From the NCBI RefSeq assembly GCF_019668485.1, contig NZ_AP024619.1, positions 380,501 through 444,500 on the forward strand: a DNA stretch of 64,000 nucleotides, read 5' to 3'. Positions 5,352-53,282 of this stretch are shown in pieces. Under the pieces are notes generated by a model that saw only the letters and a program-made list of their open reading frames with translations, had not been told where the DNA came from and searched no databases. The DNA is from Gelria sp. Kuro-4. GTDB taxonomy: Bacteria > Bacillota > DTU030 > DUMP01. The position numbers were made by a program, and so were the translations under genes. The first letter of the stretch is position 1. Each line of letters opens with the position of its first letter.

Positions 5352-6398
5352 TCACTCCCCCTTTGGTGCCGCCAGGGCCTTTTGGATGGCCTCCTTAAAG
5401 GGCGGCCGCAAGATGCCGGCCTCGGTGATGATGCCGCTCAGGTACCAGTGGGGCGTCACGTCGAAAGCCGGGTTCCAGACAGACACCCCCGCCCGCGCCA
5501 GCCTCCGGCCGCCGATGTGGGTGACCTCCTCCGGGTCGCGCTCCTCGATGGGGATCTCCCGGCCGCTCGTGAGCCTTTCATCGATGGTGGCCAGCGGTGC
5601 CGCCACATAGACCGGGATACCGTGCTCACGGGCAAGGACGGCCACGCTGTAGGAGCCGATTTTGTTGGCGGTGTCGCCATTGGCGGCGATGCGGTCGGCA
5701 CCGAAGATCACCAAGTCCACCCGGCCCTTTTGCATGGCGTAGCCGGCCATATCATCGCAGATCAGAGTCACAGGAATGCCGTCCTCCTGGAGCTCGTAGG
5801 CGGTAAGGCGCGCACCCTGCAGCAGGGGCCTGGTTTCGTCGGCGTACACCATGGCCACCTTGCCCGCCGCGTGGGCCGCCCGGATCACCCCCAGTGCCGT
5901 CCCGTACCCGGCCGTGGCCAGGGCACCGGCGTTGCAGTGGGTAAGGATGCGGGCGCCGGGCGGGACCACCGCCGCGCCGTGCGCACCGATTCGCCGGCAA
6001 ATCTCCATATCTTCCGCAAAGAGGTGATGGGCCGCGTCCAGGAGGGCCTGCTGCATGGCCGCGACGCTCTCATCCGCCAGCTCTTCGGCCCGCCGGTAGG
6101 CGCGCTCGAGCGCCCGAAAGAGGTTTACCGCCGTGGGCCGCGTCCCGGCCAGAAGTTCTTTCACCGCCCTGAGGTGCCGCAGGAACTCCTCCCTCTCCGT
6201 ACCCTTAAACTCGCGCGCTCCCAAGGCCAGGCCGTAGGCCGCCGCAATGCCGATGGCCGGCGCCCCGCGCACCGCCAGCCGCCGGATGGCAGCCGCCACC
6301 TCCTCCGGCCGGGTGCAGCGCAGGTACTCCGTTTTCTCCGGGAGCTTCGTCTGGTCGAGCAGTAAGAGCGCCCCGTCCTCCCAGCGCATGGTGTCCAT
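5352..6398 (-). CDS. mtnA: S-methyl-5-thioribose-1-phosphate isomerase
   Basis: 348 residues of the eIF2B-like aldose-ketose isomerase family, converting methylthioribose-1-phosphate to methylthioribulose-1-phosphate in methionine salvage. Seen: RGAPAIGIAAAYGLALG near residue 45, the catalytic-cysteine segment LTHCNAGALATAGYGTALG (about 152-170), the catalytic-aspartate segment FGADRIAANGDTANKIG (about 233-250) and DVTPHWYLSGIITEAG at the end. ATG 6398 follows AAAGGAG with nine-base spacing. Middle gene of asparaginase-mtnA-pdp. A related family acts on ribose-1,5-bisphosphate; next to a nucleoside phosphorylase that alternative deserves mention, but sequence motifs alone favour MtnA. Confidence 0.9.
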   Translation of the reverse strand: MDTMRWEDGALLLLDQTKLPEKTEYLRCTRPEEVAAAIRRLAVRGAPAIGIAAAYGLALGAREFKGTEREEFLRHLRAVKELLAGTRPTAVNLFRALERAYRRAEELADESVAAMQQALLDAAHHLFAEDMEICRRIGAHGAAVVPPGARILTHCNAGALATAGYGTALGVIRAAHAAGKVAMVYADETRPLLQGARLTAYELQEDGIPVTLICDDMAGYAMQKGRVDLVIFGADRIAANGDTANKIGSYSVAVLAREHGIPVYVAAPLATIDERLTSGREIPIEERDPEEVTHIGGRRLARAGVSVWNPAFDVTPHWYLSGIITEAGILRPPFKEAIQKALAAPKGE

Positions 6399-6412
6399 CG
6401 CGTCCAGCTCCT

Positions 6413-7417
6413 TTACTTAAAGAAAGGTACCGCCTCCAACCGGCCGGCGGTTAACCCGCCCCAGGTCTTGATCGCATAGCTGCGAAAGGGGCTCAGCGCC
6501 TGCAAGGCGCCTTCGTCCAGCAGGGACAGTTCGGCGAGCACCTCGGTCACCACCGGTGCCAGCGCCCGGTCGGACCCATCCTCGATCTTCACGGCCACAC
6601 CGATGCCCGCAGGGATGCTGCCCACGCCGAAAGAGGCTTCTGCCCCGTCCTTGGCCACCAGGGCACCGTTGGCAGTTTTGAGAAGCGCGGTAGTGTAGCG
6701 CTCCGTTCCGGCAATGAGCTCCGGGTAGCGGGCCATGGCCTCTTGGATGAGCGCGATCCCCCGGCGCTGCTCCCCTGCAGGCCCGCCGGCGCCCGCCAGC
6801 CGGGCGTAGCCCCAGGCCATGTTCCGAAGCGGCACGGCGAACACCGGCACTCCGCAGGTGTCGCGCCCCGTCCTGATCGCTTCCGCCGGGTAACCGGTGA
6901 GCTCCGCCACCGTCCGCAGCATCAGCTGCTGTACCGGGTGGCCCAGCTCCAGGTAGCCGGCCGTGTCCCAGCCCCGGTGACGGCAGAGGGCAAGCATGGC
7001 GGCGTGCTTCCCCGAGCAGGCATTGCGGGCCGGGCCGATCGGCTCGCCCGCCCGGCGCAGGCGGCGGGCGGTAGGTTTGTGGAAAGGGGTATGGACCCCA
7101 CACTGCAGGCTCGCCTCATCCAGGCCGATCTTATGAAGGACCGAAAGCACCCGTGCCACGTGCATATCTTCCCCACTGTGCGAGGCGCACATTACCGCCA
7201 GTTCGTCCAAGGTGAAACCAAAGGCGTCATAGGCGCCCGTGGTTACAACCGGCAGCGCCTGGAAGGGCTTGGCCGCCGAGCGCAAAAAGGTCAGGCGCTC
7301 CGGATCACCCCGGCTGTAAAGCAGATTTCCCTCCCCGTCCACCACCGCGATCGACCCGTAGTGGCGGCTTTCCTCCCACCGGCCGCGGTAGGCCACGGCC
7401 ACAACTTCCGGCTGCAC
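6413..7417 (-). CDS. type II L-asparaginase family protein (Rhizobium-type)
   Basis: 334 residues matching the asparaginase II family, which is unrelated to E. coli AnsA/AnsB: SRHYGSIAVVD, FLRSAAKPFQALPVV (serine and lysine thought catalytic), CASHSGEDMHV, and the CSGKHAAMLALC motif with SGKH. It is predicted cytosolic (no signal peptide). Start chosen at GTG 7417, nine bases after AGGAG; the GTG at 7423 is only three bases from that site. First gene of the operon with mtnA 14 bases behind. No transcription signal could be identified upstream. Confidence 0.85.
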   Translation of the reverse strand: MQPEVVAVAYRGRWEESRHYGSIAVVDGEGNLLYSRGDPERLTFLRSAAKPFQALPVVTTGAYDAFGFTLDELAVMCASHSGEDMHVARVLSVLHKIGLDEASLQCGVHTPFHKPTARRLRRAGEPIGPARNACSGKHAAMLALCRHRGWDTAGYLELGHPVQQLMLRTVAELTGYPAEAIRTGRDTCGVPVFAVPLRNMAWGYARLAGAGGPAGEQRRGIALIQEAMARYPELIAGTERYTTALLKTANGALVAKDGAEASFGVGSIPAGIGVAVKIEDGSDRALAPVVTEVLAELSLLDEGALQALSPFRSYAIKTWGGLTAGRLEAVPFFK

Positions 7418-8541: not shown

Positions 8542-9213
8542 TCAGCCCAAGATTTCCCGCAGCACCCTGGCCACGATGCCGCGGGCCAAAACAACGGGCG
8601 CCCCGGTCAGCCGGCGAACCTTTTCCTGCATAGCCAGTGTGTAGCCCATGCAGTCCATTACGGTAAGCTCCACCCCGGCTGCGGCCAGATCTCCGGCCGC
8701 TTCTTCCAGTTCTCGCGGGTCACCATAGGGTGAAGCGGCCCGCACTATCTGCGCGCGTCCCACAGCCCGCCAACGAGTTGCAGCTTGAGCAATCTGGTCC
8801 GGCGCAGGGATCAGCACACCCAGCCTCAGGTCGGCAGCCAGGGCGGCGGTCACGTTATAGAGCACAGGCTGCGGCCGCACCAAAAGCCCTGCCCCAGCAA
8901 AACGTGGGAATTCGCCGGTACAGAGCAGTGCCACCACGGGAATCCCCTGGCGAAAGAGCTCTGCGGTTTTGGCCTGAAGGCGGGGATAAATGTGCTTCTC
9001 CGCCACCTTTACCGCGGAGCCGTCCTGCAGACGCGTCACGAGCACATAGTCTCCCGGCTCCGGGGCAAGGCGGGCGATCTCTTCTTTGGTCAAGCCGTCC
9101 AGGGCGCCGGCTTCCTTAATTTCTGTGTCCCGGCCCAGAATTGCCGCCAGCTCCGGCACCAGGTCCTCGCGCGGCGCCTGGCCGATGGTCACCGTGCCAA
9201 GAACTTTTTTCAC
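8542..9213 (-). CDS. AroM family protein
   Basis: 223 residues starting with the family hallmark TVTIGQAPREDLVPEL, followed by AGALDGLTKEEI and a C-terminal VMDCMGYTL segment reminiscent of Asp/Glu racemase cysteine sites (Cys about residue 189), plus an earlier LLCTGEF cysteine (about 114). The two-cysteine arrangement in a racemase-like fold is inference. AroM was named from its position beside aroL in E. coli and has no assigned reaction. GTG start at 9213 with AGGGGG seven bases upstream; the longer reading overlaps the gene before it. Its context here, beside a second racemase-family protein, suggests work on the same acidic or cyclic amide substrate. Confidence 0.8.
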   Translation of the reverse strand: MKKVLGTVTIGQAPREDLVPELAAILGRDTEIKEAGALDGLTKEEIARLAPEPGDYVLVTRLQDGSAVKVAEKHIYPRLQAKTAELFRQGIPVVALLCTGEFPRFAGAGLLVRPQPVLYNVTAALAADLRLGVLIPAPDQIAQAATRWRAVGRAQIVRAASPYGDPRELEEAAGDLAAAGVELTVMDCMGYTLAMQEKVRRLTGAPVVLARGIVARVLREILG

Positions 9214-9224
9214 CTGTCCGCCCC

Positions 9225-10052
9225 CTAATGATTTGCTTTGCCGCCATAGATGCAGCCCACGTGCAGCTGACAGTTGGGGCCACCGCGCCGGCACTCGACC
9301 AAGCTGCCCTCGGCGCCGCTGGTCCGGGCGCCTTTGAGCGCCAACACCAGTTCCCACAGTCTCTCCACATTTTCCGCTTCCCCCTCGACGGCCAAGGTCG
9401 TGGACCCCTCAGCGCCGTCGATGCCGCCGCGACCGATTACGGTGGCTTTCACCGGAGCGAGCAGCGTGATCGCAGTAACCTCGGTGATAACGCGTCCCGG
9501 GACCGGTATCAGGCCCACCGCCATTCCCATGGACCGGGACGTGTCCCTGCGCCCAGCGGCGGCGATGGCCTCGGTTATGGAACACGGCGAGAGTTTTTCT
9601 AAACCGGCGGCAATGATGGTGGTGATCCCCTCGGCTTCCAATGCCGCGAGGACCTTCCCCGGTTTACCGCCCAGAGGGCTTCCAGCCATGATGGCAGCCC
9701 GCCCCGAAGCATCGATCAGATTCGCCCCGCAAACTGCCACATCTGAAGGGGCCATCCCGAGGACCGCTTCTTCCAACTCAGCGTCCACATTGCGCCACAG
9801 GCCCCGCTCCAGCAGCACTGTGTGCGGGGCAGGTAGCTGTTCACGGCCGGCGCGCGTACCCCGCGGGGTGATGCGCCCGGAAATGCGCAGGGCAATGCCG
9901 GCGAGTTCCTCAGCAACAGCAGATACTGTTGTTCCTCCTTTGAGGAGAATCTTTCCTTCACGCAGTGCCTGCTGCACCTCGGGGAGGTTGGCGATGGCTT
10001 TGGCAATCAGCCGCTTGCCCTCGCTCACGGTCAGCGTTATTTGGGCTTTCAT
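9225..10052 (-). CDS. conserved-looking protein of unknown function, 275 residues
   Basis: I do not recognise this family. ATG 10052 gives MKAQITLTVSEGKRLIAKAI; there is no clear Shine-Dalgarno, and the gene overlaps the end of the DUF1177 gene, so translation coupling is likely. Glycine-rich motifs suggest a nucleotide or sugar-binding fold: LLKGGTTVSAVAEELAG (about 38-55), NLIDASGRAAIMAGSPLGGKPGKV (about 110-135), and VIGRGGIDGAEGSTTL (about 220-235). The C-terminal tail has CRRGGPNCQLHVGC, a possible metal or redox trio of cysteines. No signal peptide or membrane helix. It lies inside a dedicated catabolic unit and is probably an enzyme of it. Confidence 0.65.
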   Translation of the reverse strand: MKAQITLTVSEGKRLIAKAIANLPEVQQALREGKILLKGGTTVSAVAEELAGIALRISGRITPRGTRAGREQLPAPHTVLLERGLWRNVDAELEEAVLGMAPSDVAVCGANLIDASGRAAIMAGSPLGGKPGKVLAALEAEGITTIIAAGLEKLSPCSITEAIAAAGRRDTSRSMGMAVGLIPVPGRVITEVTAITLLAPVKATVIGRGGIDGAEGSTTLAVEGEAENVERLWELVLALKGARTSGAEGSLVECRRGGPNCQLHVGCIYGGKANH

Positions 10053-11004
10053 GCCGAACACTCGCGCCGCCGTGGCGCCCCAGGGTCTGGAGGTGGGCTA
10101 AGGACCCGTAAAGGTCAAGGAGCCGCTGATACTCCCCCTCGTCGTAGAAACGGCACTTCCCGGCTCCGAAGGCCTTTGCCGCTTCCAGTGCGAAGCGGAC
10201 GGTCTCTTCGATGTCCACCACGTGGCTGGCGCCGGTGCCACAACCGGGCACAGCCACCTGCGCAGTGATTGCTACTCCCACCACCGGCGCCGCCGTAGCC
10301 GTGGCGGGCTGAACCAAGCTGTTCAGGTGAAAAACCCCGTTTCCATAAGGCGTGATGTCCTGCGTGGTTATGGCCAGAACAGCCGGCAGCCGTCCCGACA
10401 CCATCTGCATTATATCGAGCAGGTCTTCAGAAACCCGCAGGATGTAGCCTTCTTTTACGGTGGGCGTGATGGCAAAACCGCGCTGGTTGATGATGCGGTT
10501 GCCCTTCGTGGTATCGATGGACAGCACCGCCTCCATCTCCGGCGTAACCTCATAGCGGTTCATCGCCGCCATGTCGACCGGAGAACCCATAAACGGGACC
10601 GGTTCGTGGGGTTGGGTGGGGGCATGGGGACAAATGTGCGTGCTTATCATGACGTCCCCCGGAAGCACATCGCCCTTTTGTTGCATCCGGGCCAGTTTCA
10701 AAGCCAGAGCCAGGGCGGCTACAGCCCCGTCGCCGTCCGAGACCAGGCCAATCCTCTCCGGACGCGCGCCGATGCCGCCAAGGCGTCCAACTACGCCGAG
10801 CGTAGGGCTGGGCCCGCCCGCCTGCCTGCCCTGCGTTCCCGGTATCACGACTTGCACAAAATCCGTGAAACCCTGTGGCCCGTCCACCCGGGTGACCTTT
10901 ACCTGTTCCAAACCGGCCGCCAGCAAGGCCTTTCTAACGCGTTCGCCATCCACCCGCGCATCATCCAGCAGGTCGTACGCTTCTAAGGTAGCCTTAAACG
11001 TCAT
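9958..11004 (-). CDS. DUF1177 family protein
   Basis: 348 residues as read; the first about 305 match the DUF1177 family, whose function is not established. Segments such as IGLVSDGDGAVAALALALKLARMQ, STHICPHAPTQPHEPVPFMGSPVDM and VPGCGTGASHVVDIEETVRFA, with several His/Asp/Cys positions, suggest a metal-dependent peptidase-like fold (inference). Start is ATG 11004 with GGGAGG eight bases upstream. The last about 40 residues overlap the next gene by 95 bases and are low-complexity, Arg/Gln-rich, as expected of an out-of-frame reading; the family proteins I know end near LYGSLAHLQ, so a frameshift or lost stop codon is possible. Confidence 0.8.
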   Translation of the reverse strand: MTFKATLEAYDLLDDARVDGERVRKALLAAGLEQVKVTRVDGPQGFTDFVQVVIPGTQGRQAGGPSPTLGVVGRLGGIGARPERIGLVSDGDGAVAALALALKLARMQQKGDVLPGDVMISTHICPHAPTQPHEPVPFMGSPVDMAAMNRYEVTPEMEAVLSIDTTKGNRIINQRGFAITPTVKEGYILRVSEDLLDIMQMVSGRLPAVLAITTQDITPYGNGVFHLNSLVQPATATAAPVVGVAITAQVAVPGCGTGASHVVDIEETVRFALEAAKAFGAGKCRFYDEGEYQRLLDLYGSLAHLQTLGRHGGASVRHESPNNADRERGQAADCQSHRQPPRGAAGTA

Positions 11005-11019
11005 CTCCTCACCCTCCCG

Positions 11020-12099
11020 TCAAGCCAAATACTTTACTATTTCTTTTCCAATGGCTTGTTCCACCGCTGCAAAGAGCGCCTGGTTTTGCATGCTGGCACC
11101 GAGGAGCAACCTTTCCCGCGGTACATGGAGCACTGCAACCTCCTGCCCAGCGGCGATCTCAGCTGAGGTTAAGGGATACCCGGTCCTAGCGTCCATCGTT
11201 GTGATCAAATCTGGAAAGGTGCCGTGCCTCACTCCACCCTTTTCCAGCGTCATGTACTCGTTCCAGAAGTCTAGGGTAACGGTGTCATCAGCCTCTATCG
11301 TCACCTTACCAACGTCAAAGCCACCTGTTGTGGTGAGGTCTACCCTGGTAACCCGACCTGCAGCAAAGATGGTACCGCCCAGGGTACCGGCTGCAGCTTC
11401 GAGGACGTCCTGGGGACCCCGCGCTGCAGCCTGCAGCATGGCCTGGCCCAAGGCTATGGCCTGGCGTACCGCACCCACCGCCGCGTTTTTCTTGGCATAG
11501 CCGATGGTAACCGGATTGCGCGCCACCGCGACCAGGCCACCGGCCTGCACGGCCGCCTGCCGCACCATATTGGAGCAACGGCTCAAATCGCCTTTGACGA
11601 CAAGTTCCACGTAGGTACCGGCCTCCCGGTCCCCGCCGATGGCCGCCTGTACTGATTCGTAACCCTTGTTGCGTTCCAGACCCATGGCCCCCATGATGCT
11701 GGCCGGGTGAGCGCGGCCGTTTCCCGGGGCGTCGACCACAGGCAATCCCATTAGGGCGGCCTGCAGCCACCCGTTTACGGTGGCCAGGCCGCCGGCTTCG
11801 TTGGTTATGATTCCTCCGGTGCTGATGCCTGTGGCTTGTTCAATCAGCTGAGCTGCGCGCACATAGTACATGGGTTCAGCATGCCGTCCCTTGGCCGCCG
11901 GCGCCCCCACCGCCGAAACCATCAGCACCCAGGTATCATCACTCAGGTCGGTGGCGTCTACCAACCAGGTGCGCCCAAGTTCGGCCGCCAGGTAGCCCAG
12001 GCGGCGGCCGGTTTCGCGCGACCCGCCGCCGCCCCCACCGAGGACGGCGCCACCCAAGCTGGCAGCATCGACAAGTTCTTTGGTAACCAGGGTTTTCAT
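11020..12099 (-). CDS. DUF917 family protein (hydantoinase/thiohydantoin-desulfurase-like)
   Basis: 359 residues with the DUF917 hallmarks: the N-terminal GGAVLGGGGGGSRETGRRL glycine run, ISTGGIITNEAGGLATVNGWLQAALMGLPVVDAPGNGRAHPASIMG in the middle, and a C-terminal half that resembles hydantoinase/N-methylhydantoinase A folds. A DUF917 member has been described as S-methyl-thiohydantoin desulfurase, so cyclic-amide chemistry is plausible. ATG 12099 has GGGGAGG seven bases upstream; the gene follows the racemase by one base, so they are surely co-transcribed. Cytosolic. Substrate remains unknown. Confidence 0.85.
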   Translation of the reverse strand: MKTLVTKELVDAASLGGAVLGGGGGGSRETGRRLGYLAAELGRTWLVDATDLSDDTWVLMVSAVGAPAAKGRHAEPMYYVRAAQLIEQATGISTGGIITNEAGGLATVNGWLQAALMGLPVVDAPGNGRAHPASIMGAMGLERNKGYESVQAAIGGDREAGTYVELVVKGDLSRCSNMVRQAAVQAGGLVAVARNPVTIGYAKKNAAVGAVRQAIALGQAMLQAAARGPQDVLEAAAGTLGGTIFAAGRVTRVDLTTTGGFDVGKVTIEADDTVTLDFWNEYMTLEKGGVRHGTFPDLITTMDARTGYPLTSAEIAAGQEVAVLHVPRERLLLGASMQNQALFAAVEQAIGKEIVKYLA

Positions 12100-47037: not shown

Positions 47038-47091
47038 AGCCGGGGCTAGCTGTGCTCCGGCTCTTCGGTTTCGCGGTTCCGAACCTGGCTA
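47038..47091. repeat. direct repeat copy 1 (copy of the BON gene 3' end)
   Basis: 54 bases identical to 51921-51977 except for a 3-base deletion. Copy 2 contains the last about 16 codons and stop of the BON-domain gene plus its hairpin (AGCCGGGG / CTCCGGCT). It starts 26 bases after the symporter stop and runs into the transposase relic at 47092. Confidence 0.85.
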
Positions 47092-47357
47092 GGGAACATC
47101 AAGGCCGATCAGCCGGCACATCTGGGCGAGGTTCCCGGATATTCGGGCGTAAGCGGGCAGCCCGAGCACCTCATCAAGGAGAAACACTGTCCTACCGGTC
47201 TCGGTGTCAGTATCGTTCGGGAGCGAGTTCCGACCGGGCGAAGGGAGTCTTCTCGTTGGGCCATAAGTTCTCGGTGCATGGCTTCCAAGATGGCTCCCCG
47301 GAGGTCGGCCGCCACCTGCTGGGTGAAAGCCTGCACTCCCCGCTCTAGTTCTGACAT
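47092..47357 (-). pseudogene. ISLre2/UPF0236-type transposase relic
   Basis: Minus strand from ATG 47357 reads MSELERGVQAFTQQVAADLR then GAILEAMHRELMAQREDSLR, as at the N-terminus of UPF0236 (ISLre2) transposases; after a frameshift near 47190 it continues TETGRTVFLLDEVLGLPAYA, another conserved stretch, and stops at the border with the repeat. About one fifth of a full transposase remains. Confidence 0.72.
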
Positions 47358-48084: not shown

Positions 48085-48450
48085 TCAAACTTCTTTCCCG
48101 CCGCCAGTACAATCGTTGTCCGAAATCTGGAGCGCAGCGATAAAGGCAGCGATGCTCTTCGCTCGGACGCCGGTTCGCTCGGCCAGGAGTTTTACCAGCG
48201 GGTCAGAAACCAGGGAGCAGTAGCAGGCCAGGGGTAATGCGGTGGCGACTTTGGTGACACCCAGCAGTTCGTCCAGAGAAATACCGAAGAGCTGGCCCAG
48301 CTTCACCAGCGTCTCAAGGCTGGGCTGCTTCGCCCCGCGTTCCCAGTTGGCTACAGTGGAACGTTCTACACCGACCATCCTGGCCACATCGTCCTGCCGG
48401 AGGCCCATCCTTTGGCGCAGCTTCTTTAAAGTATCTCCGAACTGGATCAT
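48085..48450 (-). CDS. XRE-family repressor-like regulator
   Basis: 121 residues: an HTH domain (FGDTLKKLRQRMGLRQDDVARMVGVERSTVANWERGAKQPS, residues about 4-42, then LVKLGQLFGISLDELLGV) and a C-terminal region of about 55 residues that I do not recognise. ATG 48450 with GGAGGTGG five bases upstream. Divergent from a second HTH gene with overlapping promoters and two operator-like palindromes, as in phage cI/cro-type switches. Confidence 0.85.
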   Translation of the reverse strand: MIQFGDTLKKLRQRMGLRQDDVARMVGVERSTVANWERGAKQPSLETLVKLGQLFGISLDELLGVTKVATALPLACYCSLVSDPLVKLLAERTGVRAKSIAAFIAALQISDNDCTGGGKEV

Positions 48451-48474
48451 GACAACCACCTCCAATGGGGTTTT

Positions 48475-48542
48475 AAGGTTTCCGATAGAAACCTTACTTT
48501 TTCTCAACCCCATTGACAAGTTTCCATCAGAACACATATAAT
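48475..48542. promoter_or_regulatory. divergent promoters with two operator-like repeats
   Basis: Plus strand: TTGACA (48513-48518), 18-base spacer, TATAAT (48537-48542). Minus strand: TTGTCA (48514-48519), 17-base spacer, TAAGGT (48491-48496). The two -35 boxes overlap. Operator-like repeats: AAGGTTTCCGATAGAAACCTT (48475-48495) covers the minus -10, and GTTTCCATCAGAAC (48520-48533) lies in the plus spacer. Confidence 0.75.
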
Positions 48543-48595
48543 GTGTCCAGGCGACACGCCAGGCAACTATGCTAAGTCCACAAAGGAGGCAGCCA

Positions 48596-48838
48596 ATGCG
48601 CATCAGGCTGTGCAAGGCCCGCCTCGCGCTAGGTTTGACCCAATCTGAAGTGGCACGGCGGGCTGGTCTTACGCGCGCTTCCTATACAAACATCGAGAGA
48701 GGGCATAAGAATCCTTCGGTAGTCACCGCTCTGCACATCGCCCAGGTTCTCAACAGATCTGTCGAGGAACTCTTCGCCGATAAGCCCCCACCGGCCGGGC
48801 TGCAAAAGGTAGGAGAAAGACGGGGGTACAGTAGTTGA
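48596..48838 (+). CDS. small XRE-family HTH protein (Cro-like)
   Basis: 80 residues, essentially one HTH domain: RLALGLTQSEVARRAGLTRASYTNIERGHKNPSVVTALHIAQVLNRSVEELF. ATG 48596 with AGGAGG six bases upstream, behind a consensus promoter. Likely the opposing regulator to the divergent repressor gene. Confidence 0.87.
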   Translation: MRIRLCKARLALGLTQSEVARRAGLTRASYTNIERGHKNPSVVTALHIAQVLNRSVEELFADKPPPAGLQKVGERRGYSS

Positions 48839-49165: not shown

Positions 49166-49318
49166 ATGGTCGATGGCCCATTAACCCGAGAAGAAATCGA
49201 AGAACTGCTAGTAGCTCTGATCAAGGAAGGAATTCCGGCACCCGCCGACCGGTCCAAGCTGGAAGGAGAAGCCGGTGATTGTTTTTCCAATGAGCTGCGT
49301 GCTATGCACATGAGTTGA
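49166..49318 (+). CDS. small acidic protein, 50 residues, unknown
   Basis: ATG 49166 has GGAGGAGG eight to ten bases upstream, a strong site. The product is mostly helical (LTREEIEELLVALIKEGIPAPADRS...) with a single cysteine. No family recognised. Its end is 20 bases before the secreted-protein gene, so it may be the first gene of that operon or a leader peptide. Confidence 0.55.
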   Translation: MVDGPLTREEIEELLVALIKEGIPAPADRSKLEGEAGDCFSNELRAMHMS

Positions 49319-49338
49319 TCATGAGGGAAGGAAGCAGC

Positions 49339-49842
49339 ATGAAGAAGTGGTTGTTAACGGGCGCCTCGATAATTTTTACCACAAGCATAATCCTGTTCTT
49401 CTTACAAAACGGCGCAGCGGGGGCAGTTCCGGGAAGCATCACCGTACAGGCCAAAGTTAACCCTAACATCTCCGTGAGCGTCGACCCCACCAGCATATTG
49501 CTCGAAGGAATACCTGGTTCTACAGTTACCAGCAGCAGCCCGGTGGTGGTCAACGTCAAGTCTAATGTGGACTACAACTTAAGCGTCCAGGCGACCCAGG
49601 ACCTGACGGATACCAGTGTGAGCCCGGCCTCGACCCTGCCTATCAGCCGCTTGAGCTGGGCGCCGGCAGGAACAGGGGCTTGGACGGCCTTTAGCCTGGC
49701 GGACACAGCCATCGCCGTTGCTGAGCCCAAGGCTGTAGGAGGCGGGAAAGACTATCTTTTTGATTACCGGTTTGTAATTGATCCAAGCGATCCTGTAGGA
49801 GCCTATTCCACGGAAATCGTCTACACCGCTGTTGCCTACTAG
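49339..49842 (+). CDS. secreted beta-rich protein, possible surface/pilus-like subunit
   Basis: 167 residues with a signal peptide (KKWLLTGASIIFTTSIILFFLQNGAAGAV, cleavage about residue 31) and a mature part rich in Thr/Ser/Val: ITVQAKVNPNISVSVDPTSILLEGIPGSTVTSSSPVVVNVKSNVDYNLSVQA, fitting a beta-sandwich like spore coat U, WxL or fimbrial subunits. No cysteine or sorting motif. ATG 49339. The next gene encodes a chaperone-like membrane protein, so this may be its cargo or co-factor (inference). Confidence 0.7.
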   Translation: MKKWLLTGASIIFTTSIILFFLQNGAAGAVPGSITVQAKVNPNISVSVDPTSILLEGIPGSTVTSSSPVVVNVKSNVDYNLSVQATQDLTDTSVSPASTLPISRLSWAPAGTGAWTAFSLADTAIAVAEPKAVGGGKDYLFDYRFVIDPSDPVGAYSTEIVYTAVAY

Positions 49843-49960
49843 ACCGTGCGAGGGCGAAGCAGTTGTAGTTTCTATAGCTTACCTCTTCTCTTTTTTTATC
49901 CGGCCCGGTGGTGAGGAGTAGCGCACGGCTAACTTCGCGGCCGGGGACGGAGGGATGCCG

Positions 49961-51340
49961 TTGAATAACCTGAAACAGAAAGCCGTGTTATTTTTTCTAA
50001 GTTTGTTCTCCTGGTTGCTTTTCAGTCCGACGGCCTATGCGGAAGTAAGGTTGGGACTCACGCCGGCTAAGGTTGAGTTGTCTCTGGCTGGCGGCGAAGG
50101 CAGCAGCGGAGAAATAATTGTGGTCAACGAAGGCAGTGAACCTTTGGAAGTAAGCTTCTACGTTCGTGACTATTACTTCACAGACGACGGCAAGATCGTT
50201 TTCGCCGAGGGCCGGGAAAAAAGGTGGTCGGCCAGCAGGTGGTTTGAAGTCGGGCGAGTCTCTGGTCACCTCTCCCCAGGCGCAAGTATCAGGCTCCCCT
50301 ATCATGTGCGCGTGCCGCCAGGTGCCGAACCTGGCAGCTACTGGGCGGTCATCTTTGCCGAAGGCAGGGCGACAGGAAACAATGCGCCCACCTCGCCCCT
50401 AGGCGTTCGAGTAGGGTCAGTGGTTCTGATTACCGTTCCCGGCAACGTGATTATCAAGGGAGAAATACTTGACTTTCACGTCCCTCCAATCGGCTACAGG
50501 CAGGTTCCCTTCGCCTTCAGGTTCCTTAACAGTGGCAACGTCCACATCAACCTGCGCCCCCAGATAGAGGTGTTGCGCGGAGGCCAGATTGTCAATCGCA
50601 CACAGGTGGATGAGGTTATTTCTTACCCACAGACTGTCCGCGAGGTCAAGGGCTACTTGCAGCTTGAGAATATCTGGGGGTTGCACGAGGCTGTGCTGAA
50701 AATCGAACAGGAGGGAAGTACTATGCTTTATCGGGCTCCATTCCTTTTGCTTCCCTGGCCGCAGCTCCTGGGCGGTCTTCTTCTTGTTTCTCTCCTGGCC
50801 TGGCTTATCGTGCCCAGGAGAAGGAAGCAGGCCAACTCAAGACTTGAGAAGCACCCGGCTCCCACCGCGTTGACTGCAGAGGGAGAAGAAGCGGCCGCGG
50901 TTCGCCAGGCCCTGGGCATCAGTGCGGCCCTCCCGCTCCCGGCGCAGCGCTCCTTTTCCCGGTCAGGGCGGGCGGATTTTACCAAGACGCTCAACCTCTT
51001 GATGGAAGTCATCGAACAACTAAGGCAGGAAAACGCCCTGCTAAGGCACAATCTGGAAGACCTCTCCAGCCAGGCGAGTAACGAACGCTGGGAAAAGGCG
51101 GTGGCAGAAAGCCTCATCAACGCCGAGACGGAAATCGAAAACGTCCGGGCCAAAGCTGCGGCGAGCATAGAGAGGTTAAGCCGTGAGAGCCAAAAGCAGT
51201 TGACCGAGATCGAAAACCGTCTTAGGGAAAAGTTCAGAGCATTGCTCAATGATTATAAAGCTACGCGCTCGGAGGTAGAGGAGTTTCTAGGCAGGCTTGG
51301 CAGTGCAGGAGGAGCAGAAGATGAGAGCGGGGATAATTAA
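49961..51340 (+). CDS. chaperone-like (DUF916/PapD-like) membrane protein with cytoplasmic coiled coil
   Basis: 459 residues: a signal peptide (ends at AYA, about 28); an extracellular two-domain beta region (about 30-260: LTPAKVELSLAGGEGSSGEIIVVNEGSEPLEVSFYVRDY and GNVIIKGEILDFHV) as in fimbrial chaperones and DUF916 proteins; a membrane span (LLGGLLLVSLLAWLIVPRRRKQ, about 273-295); and a cytoplasmic tail with a coiled coil (about 350-450). TTG 49961 is seven bases after GGAGG, better placed than ATG 49955, one base away. The 3' end overlaps the CheX-like gene by 20 bases. Confidence 0.78.
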   Translation: MNNLKQKAVLFFLSLFSWLLFSPTAYAEVRLGLTPAKVELSLAGGEGSSGEIIVVNEGSEPLEVSFYVRDYYFTDDGKIVFAEGREKRWSASRWFEVGRVSGHLSPGASIRLPYHVRVPPGAEPGSYWAVIFAEGRATGNNAPTSPLGVRVGSVVLITVPGNVIIKGEILDFHVPPIGYRQVPFAFRFLNSGNVHINLRPQIEVLRGGQIVNRTQVDEVISYPQTVREVKGYLQLENIWGLHEAVLKIEQEGSTMLYRAPFLLLPWPQLLGGLLLVSLLAWLIVPRRRKQANSRLEKHPAPTALTAEGEEAAAVRQALGISAALPLPAQRSFSRSGRADFTKTLNLLMEVIEQLRQENALLRHNLEDLSSQASNERWEKAVAESLINAETEIENVRAKAAASIERLSRESQKQLTEIENRLREKFRALLNDYKATRSEVEEFLGRLGSAGGAEDESGDN

Positions 51341-51797
51341 TCCTTTTATTGAAGAAATGGTGATGGTTTTCCAAGAGAAGCTGGCCATGGCCTGCCAAAA
51401 GAAAAACGTTTGCCTCCAGTATGTCCCAGTGACCTGGCATGCGGTAAACGTGCTTATAGACATCACGGGCGGGGCAGAAGGAGCTGTTATCTACGGCATG
51501 GAGGAAGGTACGGCCTGTGCCCTGGCCGGGGCCTTTTACAGGAATAAGTGCTTCCAGGACTATTGCTGCGAGGTCGAAGATTCGCTAAAAGAATTGTTTA
51601 ACATCGTCAGCGGGCAGGCCATGAAAAAGTTAGAGAATGAAGGTCTGACTTGTACCCTGCTGGGACCGCCGTCCGTCATCATAGGGCGTCTCCGGGCCGT
51701 CTCTGTAGTACACCGTCCCCTGTTAGCGGTGATTTTGGATACGCCTGTTGGCGTGGTCCGGGTGAGTGCATCAATGGTGGAGAAGGCTGCCCGCTAA
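51321..51797 (+). CDS. CheX/CheC-family phosphatase-like protein
   Basis: 158 residues resembling CheX: NPFIEEMVMVFQEKLAM at the N-terminus, then DSLKELFNIVSGQAMKKLENEG (about 92-113) with the Glu and Asn pair used by CheC/CheX to dephosphorylate CheY-P, and a C-terminal strand region. ATG 51321 with AGGAGG upstream inside the end of the previous gene. No chemotaxis genes are nearby, so the target could be a CheY-like protein elsewhere, or the domain acts as a binding module for the coiled-coil tail of its neighbour (inference). Confidence 0.78.
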   Translation: MRAGIINPFIEEMVMVFQEKLAMACQKKNVCLQYVPVTWHAVNVLIDITGGAEGAVIYGMEEGTACALAGAFYRNKCFQDYCCEVEDSLKELFNIVSGQAMKKLENEGLTCTLLGPPSVIIGRLRAVSVVHRPLLAVILDTPVGVVRVSASMVEKAAR

Positions 51798-51920: not shown

Positions 51921-51977
51921 AGCCGGGGCTAGCTGTGCTCCGGCTCTTCGGTTTCGCGGTCGTTCCGAACCTGGCTA
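51921..51977. repeat. direct repeat copy 2 (intact BON gene 3' end)
   Basis: 57 bases, the copy that keeps the reading frame and stop of the BON gene. The other copy lies 4.9 kb to the left. Between them are relics, the repressor pair and the secreted/CheX operon. Confidence 0.85.
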
Positions 51978-52447
51978 TGGAAGATCTCTTCGAGCGTCGG
52001 GTTAGGCTCTCGGGTGCGCACCTGGTCGAGTACCCGTGTAACCCCGCGGGCGCGCGCGGCGGCCTCCCGGGCAGCCGCCACGGCCTTCCGATCTTCTTCC
52101 CGGCCCGCCAGAACAACTGTGCCGCCGGACGTCCGGGCACGGATGCGGCGCGCATCTACCCGCGGGTCGGCCGCCAGCTCCTCCGCGACCTCGCTTTCCA
52201 CGTCGCCGTCGGTGATGTCGCCGTCGGTGCTGACCGCGATGGCGCTCGCGACGCCCCGGATCCCCAAAACGCTTCGCGCCAGGCGCTCAGCCCGTTTTTT
52301 CTTGGCGAGCACGTCGACCACGCCGGAAAGCTGAGCCTCGCCCTTCACCACATCGGCCTTCAGGCCGTAGCTCGAAAGCTGCGGGTCGCGCTCGAGTTCA
52401 GCCTGTACTTCTTCCCTGAGCCGGTCGTCATCGGACCTCTCGGGCAT
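51929..52447 (-). CDS. BON-domain protein
   Basis: 172 residues with two BON domains (about 8-75 and 78-140: RLREEVQAELERDPQLSSYGLKADVVKGEAQLSGVV..., SEVAEELAADPRVDARRIRARTSGGTVVLAGREEDRKAV), which are thought to bind phospholipids or surfaces. No signal peptide. ATG 52447 lies within the end of tatD (20-base overlap), so it is translated from the metG-tatD transcript. Its last codons are duplicated 4.9 kb away. Confidence 0.85.
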   Translation of the reverse strand: MPERSDDDRLREEVQAELERDPQLSSYGLKADVVKGEAQLSGVVDVLAKKKRAERLARSVLGIRGVASAIAVSTDGDITDGDVESEVAEELAADPRVDARRIRARTSGGTVVLAGREEDRKAVAAAREAAARARGVTRVLDQVRTREPNPTLEEIFHSQVRNDRETEEPEHS

Positions 52448-53282
52448 GCTCTTCCCCCTCTCGCAAATCCTCAAGGATAGTATGCCCCGGCCTGCGCAGG
52501 GAATCCCCAGGAAATGCTTCTAAGCCGAACAGCCGGCGCGCGTTGGCCGTAAGGTGCGGGGCGAAAGTCGGGAGCGTTTCTCCAAAGAGGGCCGCGAGCC
52601 GCCCCGCCACCTCCAGCACCCGTGCCGGCTCGTTGCGCTGACCGCGATAAGGCTCCGGGGATAGGTAGGGGCTATCCGTCTCGCAGAGAAGGCGCTCGAC
52701 CGGAATCGTGGCGGCCACCTCCCGCACGCGCCGGGCGTTTTTAAACGTTACCGGTCCGGCAAAAGAGATGTAGTAGCCGAGCGCCAGGCACTCCTGAGCG
52801 AAGGCAGCACTGCCCGAAAAGCAGTGCATGACGCCGGCGCGCGGCCGCGGCCCTGCCTCCTTGAGGATCGCCAGCGTATCAGCATGCGCCTCGCGGTCGT
52901 GGATGATCACCGGCAGGTTGAGGGCTCGGGCCTGTACCAGCTGCCGGCGGAAGGCCTCCTTTTGCCGGTCGCGGTCGGGAGCGCCGTTGACGTAGTCGAG
53001 CCCGATCTCGCCCCAGGCCACCACCCGCGGGTGCTGTGCCAGCCGGGCAAGTTCGGCAAAGGTCTCAGCCTCTAGGGAAGCCAGGTTTTCCGGGTGCAGA
53101 CCCACGGCCGCCCACACGCTGGCGTACCGGCCGGCCAGCTCCACCGCGAGCTTTGAGGAGGTGAGGTCGTAGCCGGCGCAGATGATCCCTTCCACGCCGG
53201 CCGCCTGCGCCCGCGCCAGCACCGCCTCGAGGTCGGGCAAAAGCTCCGGGTCCTGCAGGTGGGCGTGACTGTCGATGAGCAT
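52428..53282 (-). CDS. tatD: TatD family deoxyribonuclease
   Basis: 284 residues, amidohydrolase-fold metal nuclease. Metal-site motifs in order: DSHAHLQ (about 4), GEIGLDYVN (about 90), IIHDREAH (about 127), MHCFSGS (about 152) and ETDSPYLSPEPYRGQRNEP (about 203). ATG 53282 with TCAGG seven bases upstream, four bases after metG. Conserved neighbour of metG and yabE in Firmicutes. Confidence 0.94.
   Translation of the reverse strand: MLIDSHAHLQDPELLPDLEAVLARAQAAGVEGIICAGYDLTSSKLAVELAGRYASVWAAVGLHPENLASLEAETFAELARLAQHPRVVAWGEIGLDYVNGAPDRDRQKEAFRRQLVQARALNLPVIIHDREAHADTLAILKEAGPRPRAGVMHCFSGSAAFAQECLALGYYISFAGPVTFKNARRVREVAATIPVERLLCETDSPYLSPEPYRGQRNEPARVLEVAGRLAALFGETLPTFAPHLTANARRLFGLEAFPGDSLRRPGHTILEDLREGEEHAREVR

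Follow-up and report, generated by a model that had tools for sequence, protein, structure and literature searches.

Four tightly packed genes of Gelria sp. Kuro-4, at 49166–51797 of the 64-kb stretch of contig NZ_AP024619.1 that we analysed (hereafter the window; Table 1), encode a 50-residue protein, a secreted protein, a WxLIP-like membrane protein and a CheX-family protein whose catalytic pair is intact, and the last three of these genes are conserved in three genomes. We give roughly even weight to the reading that this is a horizontally acquired operon of the motility regulon, which would provide a wall complex of the WxL/WxLIP type together with a means of lowering CheY-P. The simplest function for such an operon would be that CheY-P is lowered or buffered when the surface protein is made; if so, production of a surface protein would be linked to chemotaxis output in a single transcript, and Firmicute-type bacteria would have a direct gene-level route for the decision between swimming and attaching. 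The initial annotation had named the last three genes, all of which we recovered in place, and its operon also began at the 50-residue ORF, which it left unnamed. It described the arrangement as unfamiliar from the literature, and we likewise found no paper on CheX with DUF916; the main domain families are known, while the combination, the long cytoplasmic tail of the WxLIP-like protein and the small protein are undescribed in the papers that we found.

Recurrence and probable mobility of the gene set

A scan of 84,980 species identified full-length relatives in Moorella mulderi DSM 14980 (77%) and in a metagenome-assembled (MAG) contig (76%), although, as only two short peptide patterns were used, distant copies could have been missed. 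The secreted, membrane and CheX proteins occur in the same order in all three, with 75–77% identity between the window and M. mulderi and 69–76% between the window and the MAG contig. M. mulderi carries all four genes (71–77% identity), while in the MAG contig the small gene is missing and the remaining three abut rather than overlap. This contig (JAIMBK010000026.1), which holds the cassette at about 76% identity, was binned as Armatimonadetes, a placement that we consider doubtful. With dN/dS values of 0.15–0.37, all of the genes are under purifying selection, and by these comparisons the recurrence of one order under such selection makes the set more than a chance grouping; the association is thus not confined to the window.

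The three copies, which are the only known occurrences of the set, lie in different surroundings. The set was absent from the sampled congeners and family members of the window's genome and from all 21 further genomes of the Moorella order, and the plasmid and viral collections yielded no copy. Across 399 genomes of the phylum, 67 matched some part of the WxLIP-like protein, and among the matches listed CheX and a WxLIP-like protein occurred together in two genomes only, that of the window and that of M. mulderi; we therefore rejected a general association of CheX with DUF916-like genes, as no further case appeared among those matches. Horizontal spread would be the simplest account of this distribution. 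In the window, the region from 45 to 52 kb has a GC content of 51–59%, against 62–69% beyond 52 kb. A direct repeat of 63–66 nt (92% identical, 40 nt exact) brackets the operon and the two XRE genes in a 4.9-kb low-GC segment, and the GC content jumps from 58% to 69% at its right copy, at the 3' end of a host-like gene; the segment so bounded looks like an insertion site.

Table 1. Coordinates of the features discussed; positions refer to the window unless a Moorella locus (L164–L169) is given.
Feature	Position	Strand	Remarks
Direct repeat, left copy	47038–47100	+	First 40 nt identical to right copy
XRE-type regulator, divergent	48085–48615	-	HTH_3, E 1.8e-17
Second XRE-type regulator	48569–48838	+	HTH_3, E 3.8e-15
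Sigma-28 (FliA/SigD)-type promoter-like site, TAAA-N16-GCCGACAA	49046–49073	+	93 nt before ATG of first gene
50-residue protein with FliM/FliY-N-like motif LTREEIEELL	49166–49318	+	Good/strong RBS; homologue in M. mulderi
Secreted beta-rich protein, signal peptide, ~140 aa mature	49339–49842	+	Start ATG 49339, alternative TTG 49315
WxLIP-like membrane protein	49955–51340	+	EfmWxLIP1 profile match; best Foldseek match WxLIP 9i1y
CheX-family CheY-P phosphatase (predicted)	51321–51797	+	PF13690; E91/N94 intact
Direct repeat, right copy	51921–51986	+	At 3' end of BON-domain gene
BON-domain gene, host-like	51929–52474	-	3' end holds right direct-repeat copy
Moorella small-protein paralogue	L164 5478–5696	-	Precedes MCP gene
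Moorella small-protein paralogue	L165 1358–1541	-	Precedes MCP gene
Moorella small-protein paralogue	L166 6568–6765	+	Precedes MCP gene
Moorella small-protein paralogue	L167 6824–7024	+	Precedes MCP gene
Moorella small-protein paralogue	L168 6724–6885	+	Precedes MCP gene
Moorella small-protein paralogue	L169 ~6165–6263	-	Precedes MCP gene

A WxLIP-like membrane protein and its secreted neighbour

The membrane protein consists of a signal peptide (residues 1–29), two Ig-like domains (~30–265) and a coiled coil (~338–451). By hydropathy its long hydrophobic stretches are the signal peptide and residues ~262–289 (TM ~268–287), the latter directly followed by RRRK and then by a long helical tail, which agrees with the one membrane span and the cytoplasmic coiled coil proposed initially. 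No family reached its Pfam cut-off over the ectodomain, and the window protein alone did not reach PF06030, which its relatives reach weakly. A profile built from nine relatives matched EfmWxLIP1 of Enterococcus faecium (9i25, 9i1y) with an E-value of 8e-6 over positions 41–251, that is, over both domains, and its other matches had E-values of 0.08 or worse. Foldseek ranked the WxLIP 9i1y first and RbmA next, with the fimbrial chaperones CfaA and FimC lower, and, since the model searched has a mean pLDDT of 47.6, the weight rests on the sequence result (AlphaFold2 from three close sequences gave pLDDT values of 47.6 and 36.6, both of low confidence, and the model of the secreted protein could not be used). 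The likeness in sequence and fold to WxLIPs covers PGBD and HBD, and the C-terminal TM helix, which is also found in the relatives L069 and L006, is present. Based on these matches we class the membrane protein as a divergent WxLIP (DUF916/DUF3324), not as a proven fimbrial chaperone.

The initial annotation had described the outside of this protein as fimbrial-chaperone-like, a description that gives way to WxLIP as the best fold match and sole strong sequence-profile match. For the same reason we think it very improbable that the locus encodes a chaperone-type pilus, in which the membrane protein would act as a periplasmic-type chaperone for the folding of the secreted one, with CheX incidental: the lower-ranked CfaA and FimC matches speak for it, as do the large barrel-like proteins that adjoin related pairs in other genomes, but the locus has just one subunit gene as partner and no usher or pilin polymerisation gene, and no usher-like gene was found at the window, M. 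mulderi or MAG loci. With WxLIP leading both the profile and the fold searches, the chaperone/usher assignment was rejected.

In the WxL/WxLIP clusters of Enterococcus, Listeria and Lactobacillus (DUF916-DUF3324-TM; PMC10599100) a secreted beta protein likewise lies beside a WxLIP-type protein, and published WxLIPs share with the membrane protein described here a signal peptide, two Ig-like domains and a C-terminal TM. The WxLIP binds and stabilises WxL at the wall, the predicted mode being insertion of a WxLIP strand (PMC10599100). The secreted protein of the window had no Pfam or NCBIfam match above cut-off, and its profile matched nothing in the PDB; the places that seemingly correspond to the W-x-L motifs read Y-N-L and Y-T-A, and neither two W-x-L motifs nor a match to the WxL profile could be found in it. 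We regard it as the putative partner of the WxLIP-like protein, with no more than its position and its pattern recalling WxL. WxL clusters as published have at least one WxLIP and at least two WxL proteins; the window, M. mulderi and the MAG contig each hold one secreted partner, and so the locus falls outside that definition. It differs from those clusters further in its want of a canonical W-x-L pair, in the 165-residue cytoplasmic coiled coil, and in having CheX and a FliM-N-like small protein within the operon.

Published WxLIPs are 337–365 residues long, and their TM has been proposed to insert into the host membrane (PMC10599100); the conserved 165-residue tail and the positive-inside flank seen here argue that the TM lies in the bacterium's own membrane and not in the host's. 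The tail, a coiled coil of cytoplasmic type, is by itself under purifying selection (dN/dS 0.31–0.37). Outside the set, the closest relatives (G283 and G035) have the same ectodomain and TM and end just after the TM, from which we take the tail and CheX to be additions; in further relatives even the TM is missing. Against the DivIVA Pfam profile the tail scored 27.6 bits (cut-off 28), aligning to profile positions 26–129, and hhalign scored tail against DivIVA at 34.9, compared with no more than 23.5 across 100 shuffles of heptad blocks and with 19.7 for the reversed sequence. This alignment above shuffled controls is the tail's likeness to segmented coiled coils of the DivIVA/FliH type; DivIVA, however, has an N-terminal membrane-binding part where the WxLIP-like protein has its TM. 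Membership in DivIVA was rejected, as the score is under the cut-off, profile positions 1–25 are unmatched and other coiled coils reach similar Pfam scores, and the tail is at most suggestive of a DivIVA/FliH-like element.

Elsewhere in the phylum, the secreted/WxLIP-like pair adjoins very large beta-rich or barrel-like proteins (L016 5003–10703, L017 5054–8473, L070 697–5525), in some with several secreted partners. Such pairs may represent an outer-membrane form of the WxL/WxLIP system.

CheX and the 50-residue protein

CheX dephosphorylates CheY-P. The protein encoded by the last gene matched the CheX family PF13690 with 40.6 bits (cut-off 27) and solved CheX structures with E-values of ~2e-6, those of Thermotoga maritima (1squ/1xko) aligning over the catalytic motif. 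E91 and N94, with the three-residue spacing on the active helix that marks the family, fall at the positions of the catalytic pair of T. maritima CheX, with Pro-Pro 22–23 residues later, and both catalytic residues are invariant in the window, M. mulderi and MAG contig proteins. As the initial annotation had noted, the Glu/Asn pair is intact and the gene (start ATG 51321) overlaps that of the membrane protein, by 20 nt. The homology to the CheX proteins of Thermotoga and Borrelia (PF13690; 1squ/1xko, 3hzh) is near full-length and includes the E/N pair and the following Pro-Pro; those proteins, however, are encoded with chemotaxis genes or cheY and not with a surface complex. The genome has a FliM-FliY-CheY group and also CheA, and genes that we named from their sequences as CheW, CheC, CheD and a FliA-like sigma factor lie in one region beside cheA; a CheY-P pathway on which CheX could act is therefore available. 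A second CheX gene of this genome (L001 1456–1926, minus strand) immediately follows a SpoIIP-like sporulation gene and has a LepA-like gene next to it.

The 50-residue ORF has a homologue upstream of the same genes in M. mulderi; the two differ by indels whose lengths are multiples of three, at a dN/dS of 0.34. Its N-terminus has the form MVDGPLT-x-EEI-x-EL, with a motif beginning at residue 6, inside the range of 3–7 residues used to define motifs of this type and at the same distance from the start as LSQXEIDALL in FliM and FliY (PMC7595845). The latter is the CheY-P site of both, FliY combining the motif with a phosphatase domain (PMC7595845). We scored the candidate CheY-binding peptide (MVDGPLTREEIEELLVAL) with a matrix built from 56 FliM/FliY starts against a background of 17,306 starts. 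The versions in the small-protein family (LTREEIEELL, LTQEEIEELV and LTEEEINELL) scored 11.9–16.8, compared with 27–35 for true FliM/FliY, and the motif is degenerate in the window and M. mulderi proteins (11.9 and 15.1). No start outside FliM/FliY among the 17,306 scores as high; across the 91,368 positions of 261 proteins, a single chance match attained this score. These values are suggestive of a CheY-P-binding motif in the 50-residue protein. The FliY of Bacillus and Thermotoga joins a CheY-P peptide to a CheC-like phosphatase domain, and the operon likewise encodes a peptide resembling the FliM/FliY N-terminus along with a phosphatase of the CheC superfamily; here, in contrast, they are two separate proteins with no FliN-like domain, and the motif is weaker than in FliM/FliY.

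Paralogues of the small protein were found at six sites (one degenerate) in three Moorella genomes including M. mulderi, all before an MCP gene; the six share ancestry and are not independent events. This family has 50–70 residues, of the form MVDGPLTEEEINELLAAYEELIxQIKEGK. At two of the six sites triple-CheW and CheB genes follow the MCP gene, and five of the six have c-di-GMP-I riboswitches next to them. We found no description of the family, which is a candidate chemotaxis component. The earlier remark that no chemotaxis genes are near holds for the window's genes of annotated type, but has to be amended for the 50-residue ORF, whose family precedes MCP operons. The link of the operon to chemotaxis is well supported.

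CheX could instead serve a non-flagellar response regulator, for example one over the surface genes, making the operon a self-contained wall-to-cytoplasm signalling unit. CheX genes of related genomes sometimes lie beside an orphan CheY, and neither CheY nor CheA adjoins the set in the window; none of the three copies, however, includes a response-regulator gene, and the small protein resembles the CheY-binding peptide of the flagellar switch and has paralogues preceding MCPs, so that we judge this reading unlikely. Under the preferred reading, of an operon that lowers CheY-P, CheX would dephosphorylate CheY-P, and the 50-residue protein would bind CheY-P and either deliver it to CheX or keep it from the motor, the two together amounting to a functionally split FliY.

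Upstream signals and the proposed coupling

The sigma-28-type site before the first gene is the sole match with at most one mismatch on both strands of the 64-kb window, where 0.1 would be expected per strand. It is a sequence match, and in the stretches that we read the pattern did not turn up at any other flagellar gene of the Gelria genome. The small ORF of M. mulderi is preceded, at a distance of ~310 nt, by a c-di-GMP-I riboswitch (56.9 bits); with 11 such riboswitches in 3.0 Mb, we estimate the chance of one falling within 600 nt on the right strand at about 1 in 1000. No c-di-GMP riboswitch was found in the window, even at an E-value of 5, or in the MAG contig. Control of the operon by the sigma-28-type site and the riboswitch is suggested by these matches.

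Further upstream, the divergent XRE gene probably has its real start in the region of MIQFGDTL..., and a consensus sigma-70 promoter (12/12) at 48513–48542 precedes the second XRE gene. An MCP locus in another Moorella genome (L168) is collinear with the window over the two XRE genes and the small ORF, with identities of 71–72% (48085–48615) and 74% (48569–48838) for the XRE genes. By this collinearity, the surface genes and CheX occupy the position that an MCP operon has elsewhere.

The initial annotation had suggested that the set ties a surface structure to CheY-like signalling, and this gains weight from the recurrence in three genomes, the FliM/FliY-like small protein, the sigma-28-type match and the M. 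mulderi riboswitch. In the working that we propose, the sigma-28-type promoter (in M. mulderi together with the c-di-GMP-I riboswitch) would control the operon. The ectodomain of the WxLIP-like protein would hold the secreted beta protein at the wall, as WxLIP holds WxL, and the protein would span the membrane, its coiled coil forming an oligomeric platform inside. Based on the gene overlap and the co-occurrence, we infer that the coiled coil may hold CheX at the membrane. Flagellar switching would change while the surface protein is made, which may help cells to attach; both the direction of the motility effect and the role in attachment are conjectural, and at the level of gene content this small mobile group suggests a coupling of surface attachment to flagellar control.

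Two variants differ in how far the parts would touch. The genes may share regulation with no physical coupling, co-transcribed in a motility/c-di-GMP regulon with CheX free and the coiled coil oligomerising or localising the WxLIP-like protein. The small-ORF family and riboswitch already accompany Moorella MCP operons, into which the surface pair may have been inserted, and in the MAG contig the genes abut with no overlap, but relatives of the WxLIP-like protein with the same TM have no tail, and tail and cheX occur together in three of three cases, both under selection; we regard this variant as possible, if on the doubtful side. Rather less likely in our view is a transenvelope device, in which the WxLIP-like protein would be a wall/surface receptor acting through its TM on a coiled coil that docks and controls CheX, with the FliM mimic presenting CheY-P. 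If this device were real, attachment or surface-protein loading would directly reset flagellar switching with no chemoreceptor involved.

At one of the Moorella sites (L166) the small ORF is flanked by two c-di-GMP-I riboswitches, at 6331–6417 and 6815–6901 (plus strand); behind these, an apparent two-gene insertion sequence of the IstA/IstB type (8887–11138, minus strand) interrupts the MCP gene.
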